From the IMG/VR virus record IMGVR_UViG_3300046722_000030, positions 1 to 30,123 of that record: a stretch of 30,123 bases of DNA; one strand, written 5' to 3'. The stretch's first letter is position 1, and the number at the start of each line of letters is the position of its first letter. Made by a program: the position numbers and the translations under genes. The notes beneath the pieces are model-generated. The model was not told the origin of the DNA, did not search any database, and worked only from the letters and a program-made list of their open reading frames with translations. Shown piece by piece: positions 3,513 to 16,983 of this stretch. Source of the DNA: a virus.

Positions 3513-3619
3513 GGCGAGCCCGCGAACGGCGCAATCAAGAAAACATAAAACACCGCGCCCACGACCGCCGCGCTAACAACGACGCCAGCAACGCCGCCTA
3601 TCAACACCGCACTGTTCAC
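3509..3619 (-). CDS. Single-pass membrane microprotein, 36 aa
   Basis: GTG at 3619 overlaps the stop of the putative small terminase as GTGA, and its own TGA overlaps the large-terminase ATG as ATGA, so it exactly fills the 100-bp gap between two real genes. The peptide is one hydrophobic helix: VLIGGVAGVVVSAAVVGAVF followed by YVFLIAPFAG and a very short tail. No family is recognised. A membrane peptide between the terminase genes is odd; it could be a small holin-like or inner-membrane factor. The perfect double overlap is the main evidence for reality. Confidence 0.6.
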   Translation of the reverse strand: MNSAVLIGGVAGVVVSAAVVGAVFYVFLIAPFAGSP

Positions 3620-4144: not shown

Positions 4145-4378
4145 TTACTGCTGCGGCGGTCGCTCGCCGTGTTCGATCATCGAATTGAGCAGCAAGGCCT
4201 CGGCTGGCCTGACCTTGGTATCCCCGGCGATCATGCGGCGCAGCGTGCGCTCGCTGCGGCCCAGGAATTGACCCAGATAGGACTGCGTCACCTCCCACTC
4301 GATGGCGATCATCTTGAGCTGCGAGCCCCTCATGGTGCGCTTCTTCAGCCAGTCTGAACTACCGTTTTTCAAGACCAT
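4145..4378 (-). CDS. Helix-turn-helix DNA-binding protein, 77 aa
   Basis: ATG at 4378 is preceded by GGAGGGG at 5-base spacing. The central part reads as an XRE-like HTH: MIAIEWEVTQSYLGQFLGRS (helices 2-3 region, about 23-42) followed by ERTLRRMIAGDTKVRPAEAL, in which the SERTLRRM helix would be the recognition helix. Rhizobial genomes contain many such short HTH proteins. It begins 10 bases before the upstream 32-aa membrane ORF ends. It could be a transcription regulator of this operon or the DNA-recognition part of a packaging complex; position does not separate these. A 68-base gap follows before the coiled-coil gene. Confidence 0.75.
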   Translation of the reverse strand: MVLKNGSSDWLKKRTMRGSQLKMIAIEWEVTQSYLGQFLGRSERTLRRMIAGDTKVRPAEALLLNSMIEHGERPPQQ

Positions 4379-4467
4379 CGCTGCCCCTCCATATGCGCGG
4401 TGATGAGGCTACCGATAACGAACAGCACGAACGCCACCAGTAGAATACCTCCTGCTATTTCAAGCAC
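4369..4467 (-). CDS. Membrane microprotein, 32 aa, first gene of packaging operon
   Basis: GTG at 4467 follows a perfect AAGGAGG Shine-Dalgarno site with 5 to 6 bases between, the strongest ribosome site on this side of the window. The peptide is one transmembrane helix (IAGGILLVAFVLFVIGSLI) with a short hydrophilic tail, and it overlaps the HTH gene start by 10 bases. Promoter P1 lies about 33 bases upstream. The strong ribosome site, promoter and overlap argue for a real gene. Function unknown. Confidence 0.65.
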   Translation of the reverse strand: MLEIAGGILLVAFVLFVIGSLITAHMEGQRWS

Positions 4468-4499
4468 TAAAACCTCCTTATCATAAGTTGCGATGGCCT

Positions 4500-4528
4500 T
4501 ACTTAGGCCAACACGGCACCCATGTCAA
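4500..4528 (-). promoter_or_regulatory. Promoter P1 for the packaging operon
   Basis: On the minus strand: TTGACA (4528-4523), a 17-base spacer, and TAAGTA as -10 (4505-4500). The spacer contains GGGTGCC and TGGCC, the same core seen in P3 and P5, so this is a member of the repeated promoter family in reverse orientation. The predicted transcript starts near 4493 and reads AAGGAGG then the GTG of the 32-aa ORF. Confidence 0.7.
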
Positions 4529-4545
4529 TCTGGCCGAGACAGCTG

Positions 4546-4575
4546 TTGACGAGGGATGCCAAGCTGACCTAATGC
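4546..4575 (+). promoter_or_regulatory. Promoter P2, divergent from P1
   Basis: TTGACG (4546-4551), an 18-base spacer carrying GATGCCAAGCTGACC, and TAATGC (4570-4575). It is a weaker family member with the spacer one base longer. Its -35 lies 18 bases from that of P1, so the two promoters stand back to back. Predicted start near 4582, about 20 bases ahead of the ATG at 4602. Confidence 0.6.
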
Positions 4576-4601
4576 TATGCCATCAACAATGGAGTGCTGA
4601 C

Positions 4602-4925
4602 ATGGTCAGGATCACCAACATTCTGCTGCTCGACCCCAGCGTAACCGAAGGCCAGATCGGGATGATCCCGTTCTGGATCGATCCCGGCGACAAGCGCCCG
4701 GCGAAGGAGCAGCTCAACGAACACTACGCCCACGGCGGCGGCTGGGATCCGCAGCCCGGCTTCACACTGAACCAGAAAAACGGGGCACTGAAATACCCCG
4801 GCGATCCGCCACTGCTGCCGCTGGCGGCGCTGCGGCTGCGCGACGAGCTGATCGCGATCTACCCCTACGGCTACGTCTGCATCGTCCAGCCCGACGGCAA
4901 GTTCGAAGCCTGCCGTATGGATTGA
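4602..4925 (+). CDS. Hypothetical protein, 107 aa
   Basis: ATG at 4602 is preceded by GGAG at 8-base spacing and sits about 20 bases after the predicted P2 start. An in-frame extension to 4488 would run back through both promoters and is rejected. The sequence has a hydrophobic start (ITNILLLDPSV), a Gly/Pro-rich middle (HYAHGGGWDPQPGF) and a C-terminal beta-rich part (LIAIYPYGYVCIVQPDGKFE). It looks like a compact folded protein but I recognise no family or catalytic motif. The stop is embedded in a 16-bp palindrome and is followed at once by the P3 palindrome. Confidence 0.7.
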   Translation: MVRITNILLLDPSVTEGQIGMIPFWIDPGDKRPAKEQLNEHYAHGGGWDPQPGFTLNQKNGALKYPGDPPLLPLAALRLRDELIAIYPYGYVCIVQPDGKFEACRMD

Positions 4926-4937
4926 CTTATAAGTCAA
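4922..4937. promoter_or_regulatory. Perfect 16-bp palindrome, possible operator
   Basis: TTGACTTATAAGTCAA is perfectly self-complementary and overlaps the stop of the 107-aa gene. It directly abuts the larger P3 palindrome and itself contains a TTGAC half. Size and symmetry fit a dimeric repressor site. No second copy was noticed. Confidence 0.45.
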
Positions 4938-4976
4938 TTAGGCCAGCTTGACATGGGTGCCAAGCTGGCCTAATCC
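4937..4976 (+). promoter_or_regulatory. Promoter P3 inside a 14-bp-arm inverted repeat
   Basis: Left arm ATTAGGCCAGCTTG (4937-4950) and right arm CAAGCTGGCCTAAT (4961-4974) are perfect complements around a 10-base centre. The -35 TTGACA (4948-4953), a 17-base spacer and the -10 TAATCC (4971-4976) lie across the repeat, so the same DNA can be promoter, operator and, as RNA from upstream, a strong hairpin. The next gene starts at 5005. Confidence 0.7.
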
Positions 4977-5004
4977 TTGTCTATCGCAACCACAGAGGTG
5001 ACCA

Positions 5005-5328
5005 ATGACCACCAAGACCACTCCCCTCGACAGCGGCTCCACTGATTTCGGCTTCACTGACCAGAAAGGCCGCGCCTGCGGCTACTCCTGGGTCATCACC
5101 CAGGTCGTCTATGACCGTCCCACGACCTGGGGCAGCTTCGGCAAGCTCTTCGATATCGCCGCCAACGCCCCTGTCGTTCAGCTGGTCAGCAGCCCCACCC
5201 GCGACGGCAAGGGCTACGGCCCAGCCTTCAACCGCGTCATGTGCCGCACCCTGGAGGAAGCCCGCCAGCTTGCGGTCAAGCGCGCCGACGCCTCGCGCAA
5301 GCGCGACGTCAAGAAATTCTGCAAATAG
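5005..5328 (+). CDS. Hypothetical protein, 107 aa
   Basis: ATG at 5005 follows AGAGGTGACCA; the same GGTGACC leader precedes the genes at 5406 and 16268, so these promoter-proximal genes share their ribosome site. The protein has a Ser/Thr/Gly N-terminus, a beta-like middle (GYSWVITQVVYDRP), and a basic C-terminus (KRADASRKRDVKKFCK), which may bind nucleic acid. Monocistronic between palindromic promoter elements P3 and P4. No family recognised. Confidence 0.7.
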   Translation: MTTKTTPLDSGSTDFGFTDQKGRACGYSWVITQVVYDRPTTWGSFGKLFDIAANAPVVQLVSSPTRDGKGYGPAFNRVMCRTLEEARQLAVKRADASRKRDVKKFCK

Positions 5329-5332
5329 CCTA

Positions 5333-5370
5333 TAGGCCAGCTTGACACCCATGTCAGGCTGGCCTAAACC
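5333..5370 (+). promoter_or_regulatory. Promoter P4 inside a 15-bp-arm inverted repeat
   Basis: Arms TAGGCCAGCtTGACA (5333-5347) and TGTCAgGCTGGCCTA (5352-5366) match at 14 of 15 positions around a CCCA centre. The -35 TTGACA (5342-5347), 17-base spacer and TAAACC (5365-5370) overlap the repeat. It begins 5 bases after the previous stop and lies 36 bases before the next ATG. Confidence 0.65.
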
Positions 5371-5405: not shown

Positions 5406-5702
5406 ATGACCAAGACCAACCTGACTGCCACCATCGATGCCTACGGCGAACTGAAGGCGCAGATGGCCGAACTGGCGATCCGCGAGAAGGCGCTGAAGGA
5501 GGCGCTGGCTGACCTCGCCCCCGGCGCCTACGAGGGCGACTGGTACCGGCTGTCGATCTCGCAGGCGGACCGCGAGACGCTCGACATGGCGGCGGTGCGC
5601 GAGAAGCTTTCGCCGCAGTTCATCGCCGCGCACACCAACGTCACCCCGGTGCGCACGCTCAAGGTCGCCGCCCGTTCGGGCAAGCGGCTGGCGGCAGCGT
5701 GA
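5406..5702 (+). CDS. Conserved phage hypothetical protein, 98 aa
   Basis: ATG at 5406 follows AAGGTGACCAAC; the in-frame GTG at 5397 is part of that ribosome site and is not chosen. The N-terminal half is a helix with coiled-coil character (ELKAQMAELAIREKALKEAL), followed by a compact part with DWYRLSISQADRETLDM and AVREKLSPQFIAAHT. I recall this layout from small proteins in several alphaproteobacterial phages, without known function. The stop overlaps the GTG of a 23-aa membrane ORF. Confidence 0.75.
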   Translation: MTKTNLTATIDAYGELKAQMAELAIREKALKEALADLAPGAYEGDWYRLSISQADRETLDMAAVREKLSPQFIAAHTNVTPVRTLKVAARSGKRLAAA

Positions 5703-5775: not shown

Positions 5776-5804
5776 GGTGCGGTAGGCTGCCAGCCTACCG
5801 CACC
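5776..5804. terminator. 29-bp near-perfect palindrome (terminator or operator)
   Basis: Arms GGTGCGGTAGGCTG (5776-5789) and CAGCCTACCGCACC (5791-5804) are exact complements around one central base. It lies 5 bases after a stop and 31 bases before the next ATG. As RNA it folds into a very stable hairpin, but no U-run follows, so a classical intrinsic terminator is not certain; an operator is an alternative. Confidence 0.5.
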
Positions 5805-5835: not shown

Positions 5836-6030
5836 ATGACCGCCATGACCCAGACCACGCCCACCGCCGTCGTCATCCGGCTTGCCAAGATGAACGGCAC
5901 CCTGCTGCGCCAGGAGATCCCCTACGACGACGCCACCACCCAGGCCATCGCCAGCGCCGTCATCGAGATGATCAGCTTTGGCATGTCGATGGATGTCGGC
6001 GACATGATCACGGTCACCGCCAGCCCCTAA
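5836..6030 (+). CDS. Hypothetical protein, 64 aa
   Basis: ATG at 5836 follows CAGGA at about 8 bases; the in-frame extension to 5773 would be read through the palindrome and is rejected. The protein is small and acidic, with a beta-like start (TAVVIRLAKMNGTLLRQEIP) and a helix (QAIASAVIEMISFG) ending in DVGDMITVTASP, a plausible compact alpha/beta fold. No family recognised. It ends the left plus-strand block, facing the minus-strand operon across a hairpin. Confidence 0.6.
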   Translation: MTAMTQTTPTAVVIRLAKMNGTLLRQEIPYDDATTQAIASAVIEMISFGMSMDVGDMITVTASP

Positions 6031-6031
6031 C

Positions 6032-6079
6032 GGGGGTTGCATTTAGGGGGTTGGGGTTAGGCCTCTAAACGCAACCCCC
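6032..6079. terminator. Bidirectional hairpin between convergent genes
   Basis: GGGGGTTGCATTTAG (6032-6046) pairs with CTAAACGCAACCCCC (6065-6079) at 14 of 15 positions; the odd pair is A-C in plus-strand RNA and G-U in minus-strand RNA. It fills the 61-base gap between convergent stops at 6030 and 6092. No long U-run is present. Confidence 0.55.
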
Positions 6080-6091
6080 AAACCCAACCCC

Positions 6092-6706
6092 TCAAAAGGG
6101 CAGCGGCTCAACATCTCTCTCGTCGTCAAACGAGGCCCCTGCGGATATCCACCGCAGCGGGTCTTCGACGTTCATGCGAACCCCGGTGACGGTAGCGCCA
6201 GGAATGGTCAGCTTGGCTGCCGTAATCTGCCTGTAGTGCCCCAGCAGCTTGCCAATCTCGGCCATGGTGTAGATGGCGACCGCCCGCCCGTCATAACGCA
6301 CCAGCGCCGCTCTCTCGCTGTCTGGCACCACAACGGCAACGGTGCCGTCCTCCAGCGCCACCTCCCACCGTTCCGGCGGCAACGGCTCCGCCCCAGCCTC
6401 CATCGCCATGCGGTCGCAGACCCGCCACGCCGTCGCCATGCGAGGCGCCTCCCGGACCACGTCATCCAGGGTGCCCAGCTGGATCGCCTTGTTGAACAGC
6501 AGCCGCTGCCGGTCGAATTTCTCCCTAGTGGGCTGGTCGACCAGCAGCCGGAGCCGATCGGCACCCCACCTGCGCTCCGCCTCGATAGCCGCCGCATCGG
6601 CGCCATCGATATGGCTGCGCCCGGTCAGGTAGGTGCCGTAGCTGTGGTCCCACCTAGCGGGCGTTGTGCTGCTCGCGATTTTTGGTTCGCTGCGTTTCGT
6701 CGCCAT
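6092..6706 (-). CDS. Conserved phage hypothetical protein, 204 aa
   Basis: Last gene of the replication operon; its ATG at 6706 overlaps the upstream stop as TGATG. The N-terminus is polar and probably disordered (TKRSEPKIASSTTPARWD). The middle is helical with many R and E (AIEAERRWGADRLRLLVDQP), then RMATAWRVCDRMAMEAGAEP, and a C-terminal half of beta character (ALEDGTVAVVVPDSERAALV). I recall similar proteins from alphaproteobacterial phages, function unknown. No nuclease or polymerase motif is visible. Confidence 0.75.
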   Translation of the reverse strand: MATKRSEPKIASSTTPARWDHSYGTYLTGRSHIDGADAAAIEAERRWGADRLRLLVDQPTREKFDRQRLLFNKAIQLGTLDDVVREAPRMATAWRVCDRMAMEAGAEPLPPERWEVALEDGTVAVVVPDSERAALVRYDGRAVAIYTMAEIGKLLGHYRQITAAKLTIPGATVTGVRMNVEDPLRWISAGASFDDERDVEPLPF

Positions 6707-10426: not shown

Positions 10427-10888
10427 TCAGATGTGACGCCAAATTTTTCGGCGTCTAATTAAACTGACCAAAGATTGGCTGATGCCCATAAGGCGCGCCA
10501 GCTTTTTGCCTTCCATTGGGGAACGTCGAATAGCAAGAACATCTGCATCCGTAATTCTTGCAGCTGGGTTTTTCATCCCACTAAGCTGTCTGCCTCTCGC
10601 CACCATGCCTTGCATATTGGTTTTTCTATCGCCGACACTCAGATGGTCAGGATTAATGCAACATGGCGTGTCACAGGAGTGCATTACGTCAAGCCCTGGC
10701 GGGATTGCACCCTTGAACACCTCGTAAGAAACTCGATGAACAAGCCTTGTTCTGCCTACGATGCTGCTGCCAATTTGGCCATAGCCGTAGGCGTTTAAGT
10801 ACCCCATAAAAATCCAGCATCCGCATTCCGTAACAGGGATACAGCGTGACATCAGATAGACTGGCATGTCGCGTGCTTGGACCTCCAT
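10427..10888 (-). CDS. HNH homing endonuclease with C-terminal HTH, 153 aa
   Basis: A free-standing DNA endonuclease of the His-Me finger/HNH type. Visible motifs: CGCWIFMGYLNAYGYGQI (about 23-40), LVHRVSYEVFKGAIPPG (about 49-65), MHSCDTPCCINPDHLSVGD (about 69-87), with the catalytic His and the paired cysteines, then KTNMQGMVARGRQ. The C-terminus is an HTH (DVLAIRRSPMEGKKLARLMG then SQSLVSLIRR) for target binding. ATG at 10888 overlaps the upstream stop as TGATG. The gene is visibly more AT-rich than both neighbours, consistent with insertion of a selfish element into the operon. Confidence 0.85.
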   Translation of the reverse strand: MEVQARDMPVYLMSRCIPVTECGCWIFMGYLNAYGYGQIGSSIVGRTRLVHRVSYEVFKGAIPPGLDVMHSCDTPCCINPDHLSVGDRKTNMQGMVARGRQLSGMKNPAARITDADVLAIRRSPMEGKKLARLMGISQSLVSLIRRRKIWRHI

Positions 10889-11217
10889 CAACGAAATTCG
10901 TCCTCCAGCGAGGGCGGCTCGTACTTGGTGTACGGCCCGTCGTAATCTTCCATGTCGTGCGGCGACGGCGAGGCCCGCGTCGCAAAGAACTCGCCCAGTT
11001 CAGGGTGCTTGTCCATGAACCACCGCGCCATGCGCGGTGTCCAGTTGTTGTTGCACTTGAAGCTTTTGTCGCCCTGGTCGACGTGAAAATGCCAGCGGAT
11101 ACGGTGCAGGACCGCCCTGGCGGAATACCGGGTAAACTCGCGGGCTGCCAGCTCCAGTGAAAGCTTTTCAAACAGATAGACAACGTCGCCGGGAATGCCG
11201 GACAGATCCTTGTCCAT
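10888..11217 (-). CDS. Conserved phage hypothetical protein, 109 aa
   Basis: ATG at 11217 has GGGGAG about 7 bases upstream and starts 2 bases after the nuclease stop. The protein is helical with a recognisable core: LAAREFTRYSARAVLHRIRW, then HFHVDQGDKSFKCNNNWTPR and MARWFMDKHPELGEFFATR. I know this pattern (basic helix, 'F.CNNN..PRMAR' and 'FF.TR') from many alphaproteobacterial phages and prophages, always without assigned function. Its place in a replication operon suggests a nucleic-acid role. The C-terminus is acidic. Confidence 0.75.
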   Translation of the reverse strand: MDKDLSGIPGDVVYLFEKLSLELAAREFTRYSARAVLHRIRWHFHVDQGDKSFKCNNNWTPRMARWFMDKHPELGEFFATRASPSPHDMEDYDGPYTKYEPPSLEDEFR

Positions 11218-12202: not shown

Positions 12203-12678
12203 AGCTTTTTCTCCGACAGGTCGGCGGCGTAGATCGCCAGCAGCGCCGCCTCGGCGCGGCCAGCATCCTTCTTGCGGGCGAAGTCGGCGGCGTGATTGGG
12301 AAAGCGTTGAATGGCCATGATGCGGCATTGCTCCTTGCCGATAGGACCGCCCTGCACCTTCATCGCCCTTTTCCAGGACGACGCTGGTACTAGCAGTAGC
12401 GGCATTCCGATTAGCGCCACCACCGTCTTGGCCACGGCAAACGTCGCCGAAAACCGCCACGCCTGCATCACGCCATCGCGTGGCATGGGACCGACACGCT
12501 CGATGATGGCGTGATTGGCCCCACTGCTCCTGATCAGGGCGCGGAGTGCATTGGGGTCGACCTCGCTGCCCATCACCGGCATGTCGTGAACCGCCACGCC
12601 AGCCGGGTAGGATGGCGCGTAGAACGCCACCGCCCCGGTCAGGCCAGGATCGATGGCGACGATGACGAGGTTTTCCAT
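12199..12678 (-). CDS. RuvC-like Holliday junction resolvase, 159 aa
   Basis: An RNase H-fold endonuclease that cuts branched DNA before packaging. Four acidic positions of the family are visible: D10 in VIVAIDPGLTGAVAF (5-19), E60 in HAIIERVGPMP (56-66), and D138 with E143 in KKDAGRAEAALLAIYAA (136-152). SSWKRAMKVQGG (100-111) is the usual segment before the substrate-binding helix. Length is typical (about 160 aa). ATG at 12678 overlaps the GcrA-like stop as TGATG; the frame extends to 12792 but that overlaps the upstream gene. Confidence 0.9.
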   Translation of the reverse strand: MENLVIVAIDPGLTGAVAFYAPSYPAGVAVHDMPVMGSEVDPNALRALIRSSGANHAIIERVGPMPRDGVMQAWRFSATFAVAKTVVALIGMPLLLVPASSWKRAMKVQGGPIGKEQCRIMAIQRFPNHAADFARKKDAGRAEAALLAIYAADLSEKKL

Positions 12679-13016
12679 CAGCGAGGGCCGTTGTAGGACG
12701 CCCGGCAGTGCCTGGGGCAGTACGGCGTGCCCTCCTCGACCTGATGGGCGCAGAACAGATACGGAGCCCGCTCGCCCAGCGGCCAGCGGCAATGCCGCCG
12801 CTCCAGATCCTCCAGCAATACTGGCTGCACCTCCTTTGGCTTGGGTTTTGGCTTGGCCTTCTCGACAAGCCGACGCATCCGGCCAATGGCGGAGCCCTTG
12901 CTGATTTCTTTCCTGAACTCGCGGGTCATGGTCTCGCCAATCTCGCGATAGTTCAGCCGCCCCTCACCCACCAGTGACCGCAGCCGGGCATCCATGCCCA
13001 AGGTCCATTCGGTCAT
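12678..13016 (-). CDS. gcrA-like: GcrA-family transcription regulator, 112 aa
   Basis: GcrA is an alphaproteobacterial cell-cycle regulator that binds RNA polymerase sigma-70 and acts at promoters carrying CcrM-methylated GANTC sites. Family signs: N-terminal TEWTLGMDARLRSLVGEGRL (2-21), an HTH of the usual order ending in SKGSAIGRMRRL (about 39-50), a basic Lys/Pro linker (KPKPKPKE), and a C-terminal cysteine/histidine module: HCRWPLGE, FCAHQVEEGTPYCPRHC, RASY. Shorter than cellular GcrA (about 170 aa) through a short linker. ATG at 13016 overlaps the upstream stop as ATGA, with AGAGGAA upstream. A regulator that could redirect host GcrA/CcrM-controlled transcription is the natural reading; promoter specificity is not known. 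Confidence 0.8.
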   Translation of the reverse strand: MTEWTLGMDARLRSLVGEGRLNYREIGETMTREFRKEISKGSAIGRMRRLVEKAKPKPKPKEVQPVLLEDLERRHCRWPLGERAPYLFCAHQVEEGTPYCPRHCRASYNGPR

Positions 13017-13243
13017 CGTTTTTTCCTCTTGATGGTTTTGCGGCGCATCGGCCACAGCTTGCTGGGGGCGCTGAAGCCGTTATCCTCCAGCAATCTAAAG
13101 AAGAGAACGTAGGTGTAGGACGGGAAGCGATTGCGGACCCGCCAATTGCTGACGACTTGCGGCGAGACGCCAAAGACAAGCCACATGCGGTCACTGCCAC
13201 CTAATGCAGCGATAACTTCTCTTGTGGTGCGAAGTGTTTTCAT
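13013..13243 (-). CDS. Cro-like HTH regulator (carph-isopro type), 76 aa
   Basis: First gene of the leftward replication operon. The layout TREVIAALGGSDRMWLVFGV, SPQVVSNWRVRNRFPSYTYV, LFFRLLEDNG matches the short HTH proteins called carph-isopro in alphaproteobacteria: an 'ALGG' helix, then the 'GVSPQVVSNW' HTH and an 'RFPS' turn. The C-terminus is very basic (RRKTIKRKKR). Its start codon falls at about the predicted transcription start, so the transcript may be leaderless. By position it is the likely repressor or Cro-type switch protein for the divergent promoters at 13246-13278. Confidence 0.75.
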   Translation of the reverse strand: MKTLRTTREVIAALGGSDRMWLVFGVSPQVVSNWRVRNRFPSYTYVLFFRLLEDNGFSAPSKLWPMRRKTIKRKKR

Positions 13244-16144: not shown

Positions 16145-16166
16145 TTGCTCCCAGTAGTCTCGCGTA

Positions 16167-16199
16167 TAGGCCACCCTGGCATCACGCCACGGTGGCCTA
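16167..16199. terminator. Palindrome after exported-protein gene
   Basis: TAGGCCACCcTGGC (16167-16180) and GCCAcGGTGGCCTA (16186-16199) are complementary except for the central c-c, with an ATCAC loop. The TAGGCC arms are the same as in P3 and P4, but no TTGACA is embedded; the promoter P5 stands just downstream instead. Probably terminator, operator, or both. Confidence 0.5.
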
Positions 16200-16212
16200 A
16201 TTTATGACTGAT

Positions 16213-16241
16213 TTGACACGGGTGCCAGACTGGCCTATGAT
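16213..16241 (+). promoter_or_regulatory. Promoter P5
   Basis: TTGACA (16213-16218), 17-base spacer containing GGGTGCCAGACTGGCC, and TATGAT (16236-16241), the best -10 of the family. Predicted start near 16248, then GGAGGTGACC and the ATG at 16268. Confidence 0.75.
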
Positions 16242-16267
16242 GGATTTGTCCATCACAGGAGGTGACC

Positions 16268-16549
16268 ATGTCTGACAAGCCTAGCCTACGCGACCGCCGC
16301 CGCACCGAAGCGCGTGATGCGCTTTATCGTGCGATGGAGCGCCGCGACCAGCTGATCGACAAGCTGGTCCGCAACGCCACTCACATCAAGACACTGAAGC
16401 AGACGCTCAAGCGCCTCAACATCGTTGACGACATCAAGGTATCAACGGTGCGCGCCTCGGTGGCCGAAGGCCGGATACTGGAGCCGCTGGAGATCGATAC
16501 CGGCATCGCCCACGATGACGACATGCCAGACCTGACAGGTGTGGCATGA
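16268..16549 (+). CDS. Helical, basic-then-acidic hypothetical protein, 93 aa
   Basis: ATG at 16268 follows GGAGG in the shared GGAGGTGACC leader. The N-terminal two thirds is a basic helix with coiled-coil character (RRRTEARDALYRAMERRDQ, LIDKLVRNATHIKTLKQTLK), and the C-terminus is acidic (IAHDDDMPDLTG). This charge split suggests nucleic-acid binding with a regulatory acidic tail. Coupled to the next gene by ATGA. Confidence 0.7.
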   Translation: MSDKPSLRDRRRTEARDALYRAMERRDQLIDKLVRNATHIKTLKQTLKRLNIVDDIKVSTVRASVAEGRILEPLEIDTGIAHDDDMPDLTGVA

Positions 16550-16983
16550 AGGTCGTCATCACCGACGGCGGTCGCGCCGCCGCAGGCTACAAGGGCGGCG
16601 CAGGCGATTGCGTCGCTCGCTCCATCGCCATCGTCGCCGGGCTGCCGTACAGCGTCGTCTACGACCGGCTTGCCATTGGCACTGGCACCCAGCGCAAGTC
16701 CAAGCGCAGCACGCCACGCGGCTTCACTGCCGCCAAGGGCATCAACGTGCGGCGAAAATGGTTCAAGGACTACATGACAGAGCTTGGCTTTGTCTGGACG
16801 CCAACCATGGGTATCGGCACCGGCTGCAAGGTGCATCTGGCTGATGGCGAGCTGCCCATGGGGCGCCTCGTCGTGGCGGTGAGCAAGCACTACACCGCCG
16901 TGATCGACGGCGTGATCCATGACACGCATAACCCGCAGCGTGAGGGTAAGCGGTGTGTCTACGGGTATTTTTCAAAGCCCTAG
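16546..16983 (+). CDS. Papain-like small protein, 145 aa
   Basis: ATG at 16546 overlaps the previous stop as ATGA. The sequence has a likely catalytic Cys in GYKGGAGDCVARSIAIVAG (about 14-32) and a His/Asp region in VAVSKHYTAVIDGVIHDTHN (about 109-128). Cys at the start of a helix, with His and then Asp on strands near the C-terminus, is the papain-like arrangement. RGF...RRKWFKDYMTELGF is a conserved middle segment. I recall close relatives in many phages and bacteria, generally unnamed. Peptidase, amidase or deconjugase activity is inference. A hairpin follows the stop. Confidence 0.65.
   Translation: MKVVITDGGRAAAGYKGGAGDCVARSIAIVAGLPYSVVYDRLAIGTGTQRKSKRSTPRGFTAAKGINVRRKWFKDYMTELGFVWTPTMGIGTGCKVHLADGELPMGRLVVAVSKHYTAVIDGVIHDTHNPQREGKRCVYGYFSKP

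Follow-up and report, generated by a model that had tools for sequence, protein, structure and literature searches.

Two intergenic sites in a tailed phage, P3 and P4, each carry a promoter inside a long palindrome, and the same element was found across a family of uncultivated phages. The first-pass annotation had read this arrangement as terminator, operator and promoter in one compact unit; as anatomy the three-in-one unit is right, a role as promoter plus operator is probable, and a hairpin acting on the RNA of the upstream gene is plausible. The stretch analysed, called the window below, is an IMG/VR record of 30,123 bases, and related records are denoted by G numbers.

Anatomy of the palindromic promoters

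P3, on the plus strand at 4937-4976 (element E3), places its -35 box TTGACA at 4948-4953 and its -10 box TAATCC at 4971-4976, and P4, on the same strand at 5332-5370 (element E4), places TTGACA at 5342-5347 and TAAACC at 5365-5370. In both, a perfect -35 box is separated by a 17-nt spacer from a weak -10 box, and because the -10 matches are poor, neither appeared in the strict promoter scan. The palindrome of P3 (4937-4974) has 17-nt arms (4937-4953 and 4958-4974) that are 94% complementary around a 4-nt loop, and that of P4 (5333-5366) has 15-nt arms (5333-5347 and 5352-5366) that are 93% complementary. As the annotation had noted, the arms are the same, TAGGCCAGCTTGACA being identical in both elements, and the centres differ (TGGG in P3, CCCA in P4). 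The stop codons of the upstream reading frames lie at 4923-4925, 11 nt before P3, and at 5326-5328, 4 nt before P4, a nearness that is partly accounted for by the short intergenic gaps. Beginning at the stop codon of gene a and abutting P3, a perfect 14-bp palindrome, TGACTTATAAGTCA, occupies 4923-4936.

Stems were searched with 14-nt arms, at most one mismatch and a loop of 3-6 nt, and 40 first-order Markov shuffles of the window served as control. Such stems were found at four places in the window (about 4939, 5333, 5775 and 16167) and in none of the 40 shuffles, and half-site copies with at most two mismatches numbered six against 0.1 expected. Coordinates and shuffles thus confirm that P3 and P4 are TTGACA/17/TA promoters within long palindromes that follow stop codons. 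A chance origin of the palindromes was ruled out by the shuffles together with the conservation described below; an origin as a mobile repeat is unsupported, the promoter geometry being fixed across copies and no transposon-like boundaries having been seen. Between gene c and the frame at 5836-6030, a perfect 14-bp inverted repeat with a 1-nt loop (5776-5804) is unlike the TAGGCCAGC element, and no promoter or U tract was seen there.

The unit had also been described as repeated along the genome; six sites are present, but they are confined to two clusters, at 4500-5370 and 16167-16241. E1 (minus strand, 4500-4538) is a leftward promoter with TTGACA at 4528-4523, a 17-nt spacer and TAAGTA at 4505-4500, overlapped by an imperfect operator palindrome, TCGGCCAGATTGACA..TGCCGTGTTGGCCTAA; it heads an operon for a small transmembrane peptide, an HTH protein, TerS, TerL and the portal, and its equivalent is present in G002, G004, G010 and others. 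E2 (plus strand, 4546-4575), divergent from E1, is a rightward promoter (TTGACG, 17-18 nt, TAATG) with the right half-operator only. E5 (plus strand, 16166-16200), located 22 nt past the stop of its upstream gene, is a 13-3-13 palindrome (GGCCACCCTGGCA / CGCCACGGTGGCC) without a promoter of its own, and E6 (plus strand, 16213-16241) combines a right half-operator with a near-consensus promoter, TTGACA-17-TATGAT (11/12), the only element site that the strict scan called. Relative to shuffles, P3 and P4 fold with z values of -4.1 and -5.8, whereas E1 (z -0.35) folds no better than shuffles and keeps GGCC and TGNC but not the arm pairing.

The portal, large terminase, small terminase and HTH genes run leftward from about 4.4 kb, and the stretch between 4.6 and 6.0 kb holds four small genes read in the rightward direction. 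Among the latter, gene a (plus strand, 4602-4925, 107 aa) stands behind E2, gene b (plus strand, 5005-5328, 107 aa) behind E3 and gene c (plus strand, 5406-5702, 98 aa), which is conserved in over 20 viral contigs, behind E4; genes a-c gave no match in PHROGs or NCBIfam, and no Pfam family reached its cut-off with them. Behind E6 lies a gene for 94 aa (plus strand, 16265-16549), followed by a PHROG 3754 gene (16546-16983) that is conserved in G001, G002 and G004. On the minus strand, a small frame at 4375-4475, apparently encoding a membrane-spanning peptide, overlaps the start of the HTH gene, and a similar frame, read by eye, seems to occupy the same place in G004. A homing-type HNH endonuclease (Pfam HNH_3) is encoded at 10427-10891 on the minus strand, and no relative of it was seen in G002 or G004. 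The host is probably an alphaproteobacterium, because the window encodes a GcrA-domain protein and a terminase like those of Rhizobium, Bradyrhizobium and Acetobacter phages.

Conservation, arm pairing and recombination

Relatives were collected by pattern scans and homology scans of viral contigs, and the phages carrying the element have a size of about 40 kb. G002, G003, G004 and G010 share the order of HTH and terminase genes, a divergent promoter pair and, beyond it, small genes; their tandem junctions carry full palindromes. In the same four, the element before gene c (the E4 position) is kept, and this palindrome is kept despite a gene c protein identity of only about 69%. The arms, whose absence from close relatives had been set beforehand as grounds for abandoning the reading, are thus conserved, and the reading survives. 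The -10 boxes of relatives are often better than those of the window (TATAAG, TATATC, TATTTT, TATACT, TATTAT), so that the promoter reading is well founded: TTGACA-17-TATxxx stands upstream of genes, and, as in sigma70-type promoters, TTGACA and TATAAT-like boxes lie 16-18 bp apart. Near 4600 in G001, the same 13-4-13 palindrome is found with its right-hand TTGACA serving as the -35 box and TATAAT downstream, from which it appears that the position of the promoter along the palindrome can shift. With conserved arms, better -10 boxes and half-sites common to the promoters within each phage, the comparison supports promoter plus operator well. Among isolated phages, similarity does not go beyond the terminase, which resembles those of Rhizobium, Bradyrhizobium and Acetobacter phages, and none of these showed a TAGGCC-type promoter palindrome; the HTH protein, gene b and gene c had no protein match in the phage collection, and palindrome matches in bacterial genome contigs lacked the TAGGCC-TTGACA promoter design.

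Two layers of symmetry can be distinguished. In a comparison of 15 distinct tandem with 18 distinct divergent promoters, picked by eye from a scan and with p values uncorrected for phylogeny, inner symmetry (TGACA against TGTCA) reached 3.9 of 5 at tandem and 3.4 of 5 at divergent promoters (p 0.07), complementarity at the four positions between inner and outer half-sites reached 2.33/4 and 0.78/4 (p 1e-4; a fixed gap of 4 gave p 2e-3), outer complementarity reached 3.5/5 and 2.2/5 (p 0.008), and the best hairpin energy was stronger at tandem promoters (p 0.001). Arm pairing thus depends on gene orientation, a contrast that is absent in G013 and G022 and reversed in G019 and G020. At divergent pairs the opposing promoter restricts the space for a left arm. 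Arm positions change together between sites (AGC/GCT, ATC/GAT, ACC/GGT), and a single-hairpin search based on RNA folding undercounts interrupted stems such as that at 3610 in G001. The inner half-sites, TTGACA-N4-TGNC, are about equally symmetric everywhere, which fits an operator in all copies; they form a symmetric site that overlaps the promoter and is common to several promoters, as a dimeric operator would be. Because the outer arms pair mainly at promoters that follow a co-directional gene and not at divergent ones, their complementarity suggests that an RNA hairpin forms where the upstream gene ends.

Whether such a hairpin would end the upstream transcript, as the first-pass annotation had proposed, depends on the copy considered. 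The stems are strong (-24 to -27 kcal/mol) and are commoner at tandem junctions, but the sequences that follow them in the window, UAAUCCUUGUC and UAAACCACCUC, contain no U tract, so that the window hairpins fall outside the definition of an intrinsic terminator, and the scan did not call them. That part of the proposal is consequently not supported for the window, and intrinsic termination as the sole role was rejected for its copies. Elsewhere, T8 follows the stem in the relative L126 and U-rich UAUUUUCUUUA follows it in G002 and G004; in these last two, the promoter near 40.0 kb (G002) or 38.8 kb (G004) is immediately preceded by a separate hairpin that has a TATATTTTT tail. Judged by these sequences, termination is possible in some copies and unproven in those of the window. 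Between convergent genes at 6032-6096, nested inverted repeats rich in G/C runs probably form a bidirectional terminator.

One clear case of the element as a gene-shuffling joint was observed. G010 and G003 match in two blocks (99.5% over 1,587 bp and 98.3% over 1,863 bp) whose 30-bp overlap coincides exactly with the promoter element; relative to G003, one gene and one element (933 bp) are missing from G010, and the deletion junction lies inside the element. Gene c directly follows the divergent promoter in G016, G019 and G020; it takes second place in G010 and third place both in the window and in G004, and an element is upstream of it at every one of those places.

Proposed model and its alternatives

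We propose that each element primarily serves the small phage gene behind it as a sigma70-type promoter, on which an operator of inverted TGNC half-sites (TTGACA-N4-TGNC with outer GGCC/TGNCC) is overlaid. A small dimeric HTH protein of the phage, most likely the Xre/Aca-like product of 4145-4378, would bind this operator and block RNA polymerase, jointly shutting down its own operon (E1) and the small genes at E2, E3, E4 and E6. After a co-directional gene, the arms would be completed to a strong hairpin, either ending the upstream transcript or stabilising it, in the window probably without efficient intrinsic termination. Since the element is repeated, it would also be a joint for the loss or exchange of units that each comprise a gene and its promoter. 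We lean towards this model as a whole with moderate confidence; within it, we infer the identity of the binding protein, its action as a repressor and not as an activator, and what the hairpin does to RNA. Aca2 reads both the DNA and the RNA form of its site, and a palindrome used thrice, as DNA operator, upstream-RNA hairpin and recombination joint, with the same HTH protein reading its DNA and RNA forms, seems very improbable here; if true, one HTH protein would control both the start of transcription at the downstream gene and what becomes of the mRNA before it.

The long arms might instead serve only to raise repressor affinity, for example if two dimers cooperated in occupying four TGNC-like half-sites, and the hairpin would then be a by-product without RNA function. 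The four half-sites of E3 (GGCCA, TGACA, TGCCA, TGGCC) are spaced 8-9 bp apart, E1 keeps its half-sites without pairing, and the window hairpins have no U tract, all as this explanation would have it; it would not lead one to expect symmetric changes between the half-sites (AGC, ACC, ATC), pairing enriched at tandem junctions or, in E5, a palindrome that lacks its own promoter, and we hold it possible but doubtful. Alternatively, the element could be a terminator-promoter cassette without a dedicated repressor, as in the promoter early stem-loops (PeSLs) of T4-like phages: the upstream gene would end in the stem-loop, transcription of the following gene would begin at a host-type promoter, and shuffling would take place through the repeats. 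The position after stop codons, the strong stems, the recombination joint, the T8 of L126, the U-rich sequence in G002 and G004 and their separate T-run hairpin near 39-40 kb all agree with such a cassette; given the missing U tracts in the window and the TGNC half-sites kept at divergent promoters, where a terminator is unneeded, we consider it unlikely.

A different phage protein could also control the elements, either the Cro-like product of 13013-13243 or the GcrA-domain protein of 12678-13055. Cro-like homologues occur in G001, G002, G004, G010, G012, G013 and G022, and the GcrA domain in 13 of 15 records. The Cro-like family appears less evenly distributed than the HTH family: G011, G016, G019 and G020 have TGNC operators but no detected homologue, whereas G012 has a homologue and a different operator; in the window, the Cro-like gene has no element next to it. 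With GANTC in only 1 of 19 promoter windows, GcrA/GANTC control was rejected, and control by either protein is improbable.

The HTH product of 4145-4378 (minus strand, 77 aa) is the most likely regulator as judged from sequence comparison. Its match to Pfam PF20432 is below the cut-off, and its AlphaFold model (pLDDT 87) has fold matches that include HigA2, Aca2, Aca10, MqsA and Aca1 with moderate Z scores, which point to a common fold, not to function; sequence similarity to these proteins is marginal (E 0.5 or worse for Aca1 and Aca10). A search of 15 related records detected the family in 14, all but the 22-kb fragment G001, and the HTH gene adjoins the divergent operator pair in several relatives. 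A search of 397 genomes of one bacterial order gave distant, uninformative matches. The recognition helix xRT goes with TGNC operators; G014 (ARQVARL) has a GGACCANTGGTC-type operator and G012 (SRQIARM) has ACCCAAATTATTTGGGT, each a palindrome in the promoter spacer, and this covariation of helix and operator, with RQ instead of RT, is suggestive in only these two contrasting phages. Together with the symmetry of the sites, the covariation points to a dimeric regulator. The operon also includes terminase and portal genes, an unusual location for an early-gene repressor, which counts against the model. Lysogenic immunity is less likely, since no tyrosine integrase was found in the window or 13 relatives, whose records may be incomplete.

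Relation to known systems

Two known kinds of element, the repressor operator and the promoter-stem-loop cassette, are combined here in a new phage group. PMC4503421, citing Arbiol 2010 and Comeau 2014, describes PeSLs that likewise unite promoter and stem-loop in one intergenic element, repeated between small genes and acting as a gene-shuffling joint, and the G010/G003 junction is where such cassettes would predict it. Unlike those PeSLs, the present elements belong to an unrelated, GC-rich group that is not T4-like myoviruses, enclose the -35 box and spacer within the stem, carry operator-like half-sites in its bases and, in the window, have no U tract. They resemble intrinsic (rho-independent) terminators in having a GC-rich hairpin just past a stop codon and differ in that missing U tract.

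Some of the proteins that the HTH model matches (HigA2, Aca2, Aca10, Aca1) repress through inverted repeats over promoters, and Aca10 binds a palindrome over the -35 and -10 boxes and is thought thereby to block RNA polymerase (PMC9410881); by analogy, we propose that the 4145-4378 protein would act in this mode. As in repression by Aca1, Aca2 and Aca10, a small HTH protein of apparently related fold is coded beside the genes that it would regulate, and inverted repeats overlap -35 and -10 (PMC9410881). Unlike in Aca-controlled anti-CRISPR operons, several operators are dispersed, the HTH gene belongs to a terminase operon that points away from the small genes, none of the known Acr proteins was found and sequence similarity is marginal. 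Regulator sites are also repeated in promoters and short intergenic gaps as stoperators of cluster A mycobacteriophages, which are asymmetric 13-mers bound by monomers, oriented with transcription and present more than twenty times per genome (PMC9283540); the present sites are palindromes, few per phage and mostly at promoters, and identity with stoperators was rejected since the sites are symmetric and overlap promoters.

The elements would extend the promoter-stem-loop cassette beyond T4-like phages, with a stem that doubles as a likely repressor operator, and would offer a simple rule by which a phage adds or loses small accessory genes while keeping all under one regulator. They also mark uncharacterised small genes that may serve host takeover or counter-defence.

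GANTC is the CcrM/GcrA methylation site, and the phage-encoded GcrA-like protein (12678-13055, minus strand) matches Pfam PF07750 above its cut-off. GANTC is nearly absent from the window (2 against about 111 expected) and from nearly all of the relatives G001-G023 (0-8 against 75-167), scarce although a GcrA-domain protein is encoded in 13 of 15 records; our literature search brought up no report of GANTC avoidance in such phages. In G012, where no GcrA was found, GANTC occurs 134 times of 189 expected, and in G016, also without a GcrA match, it is still avoided.
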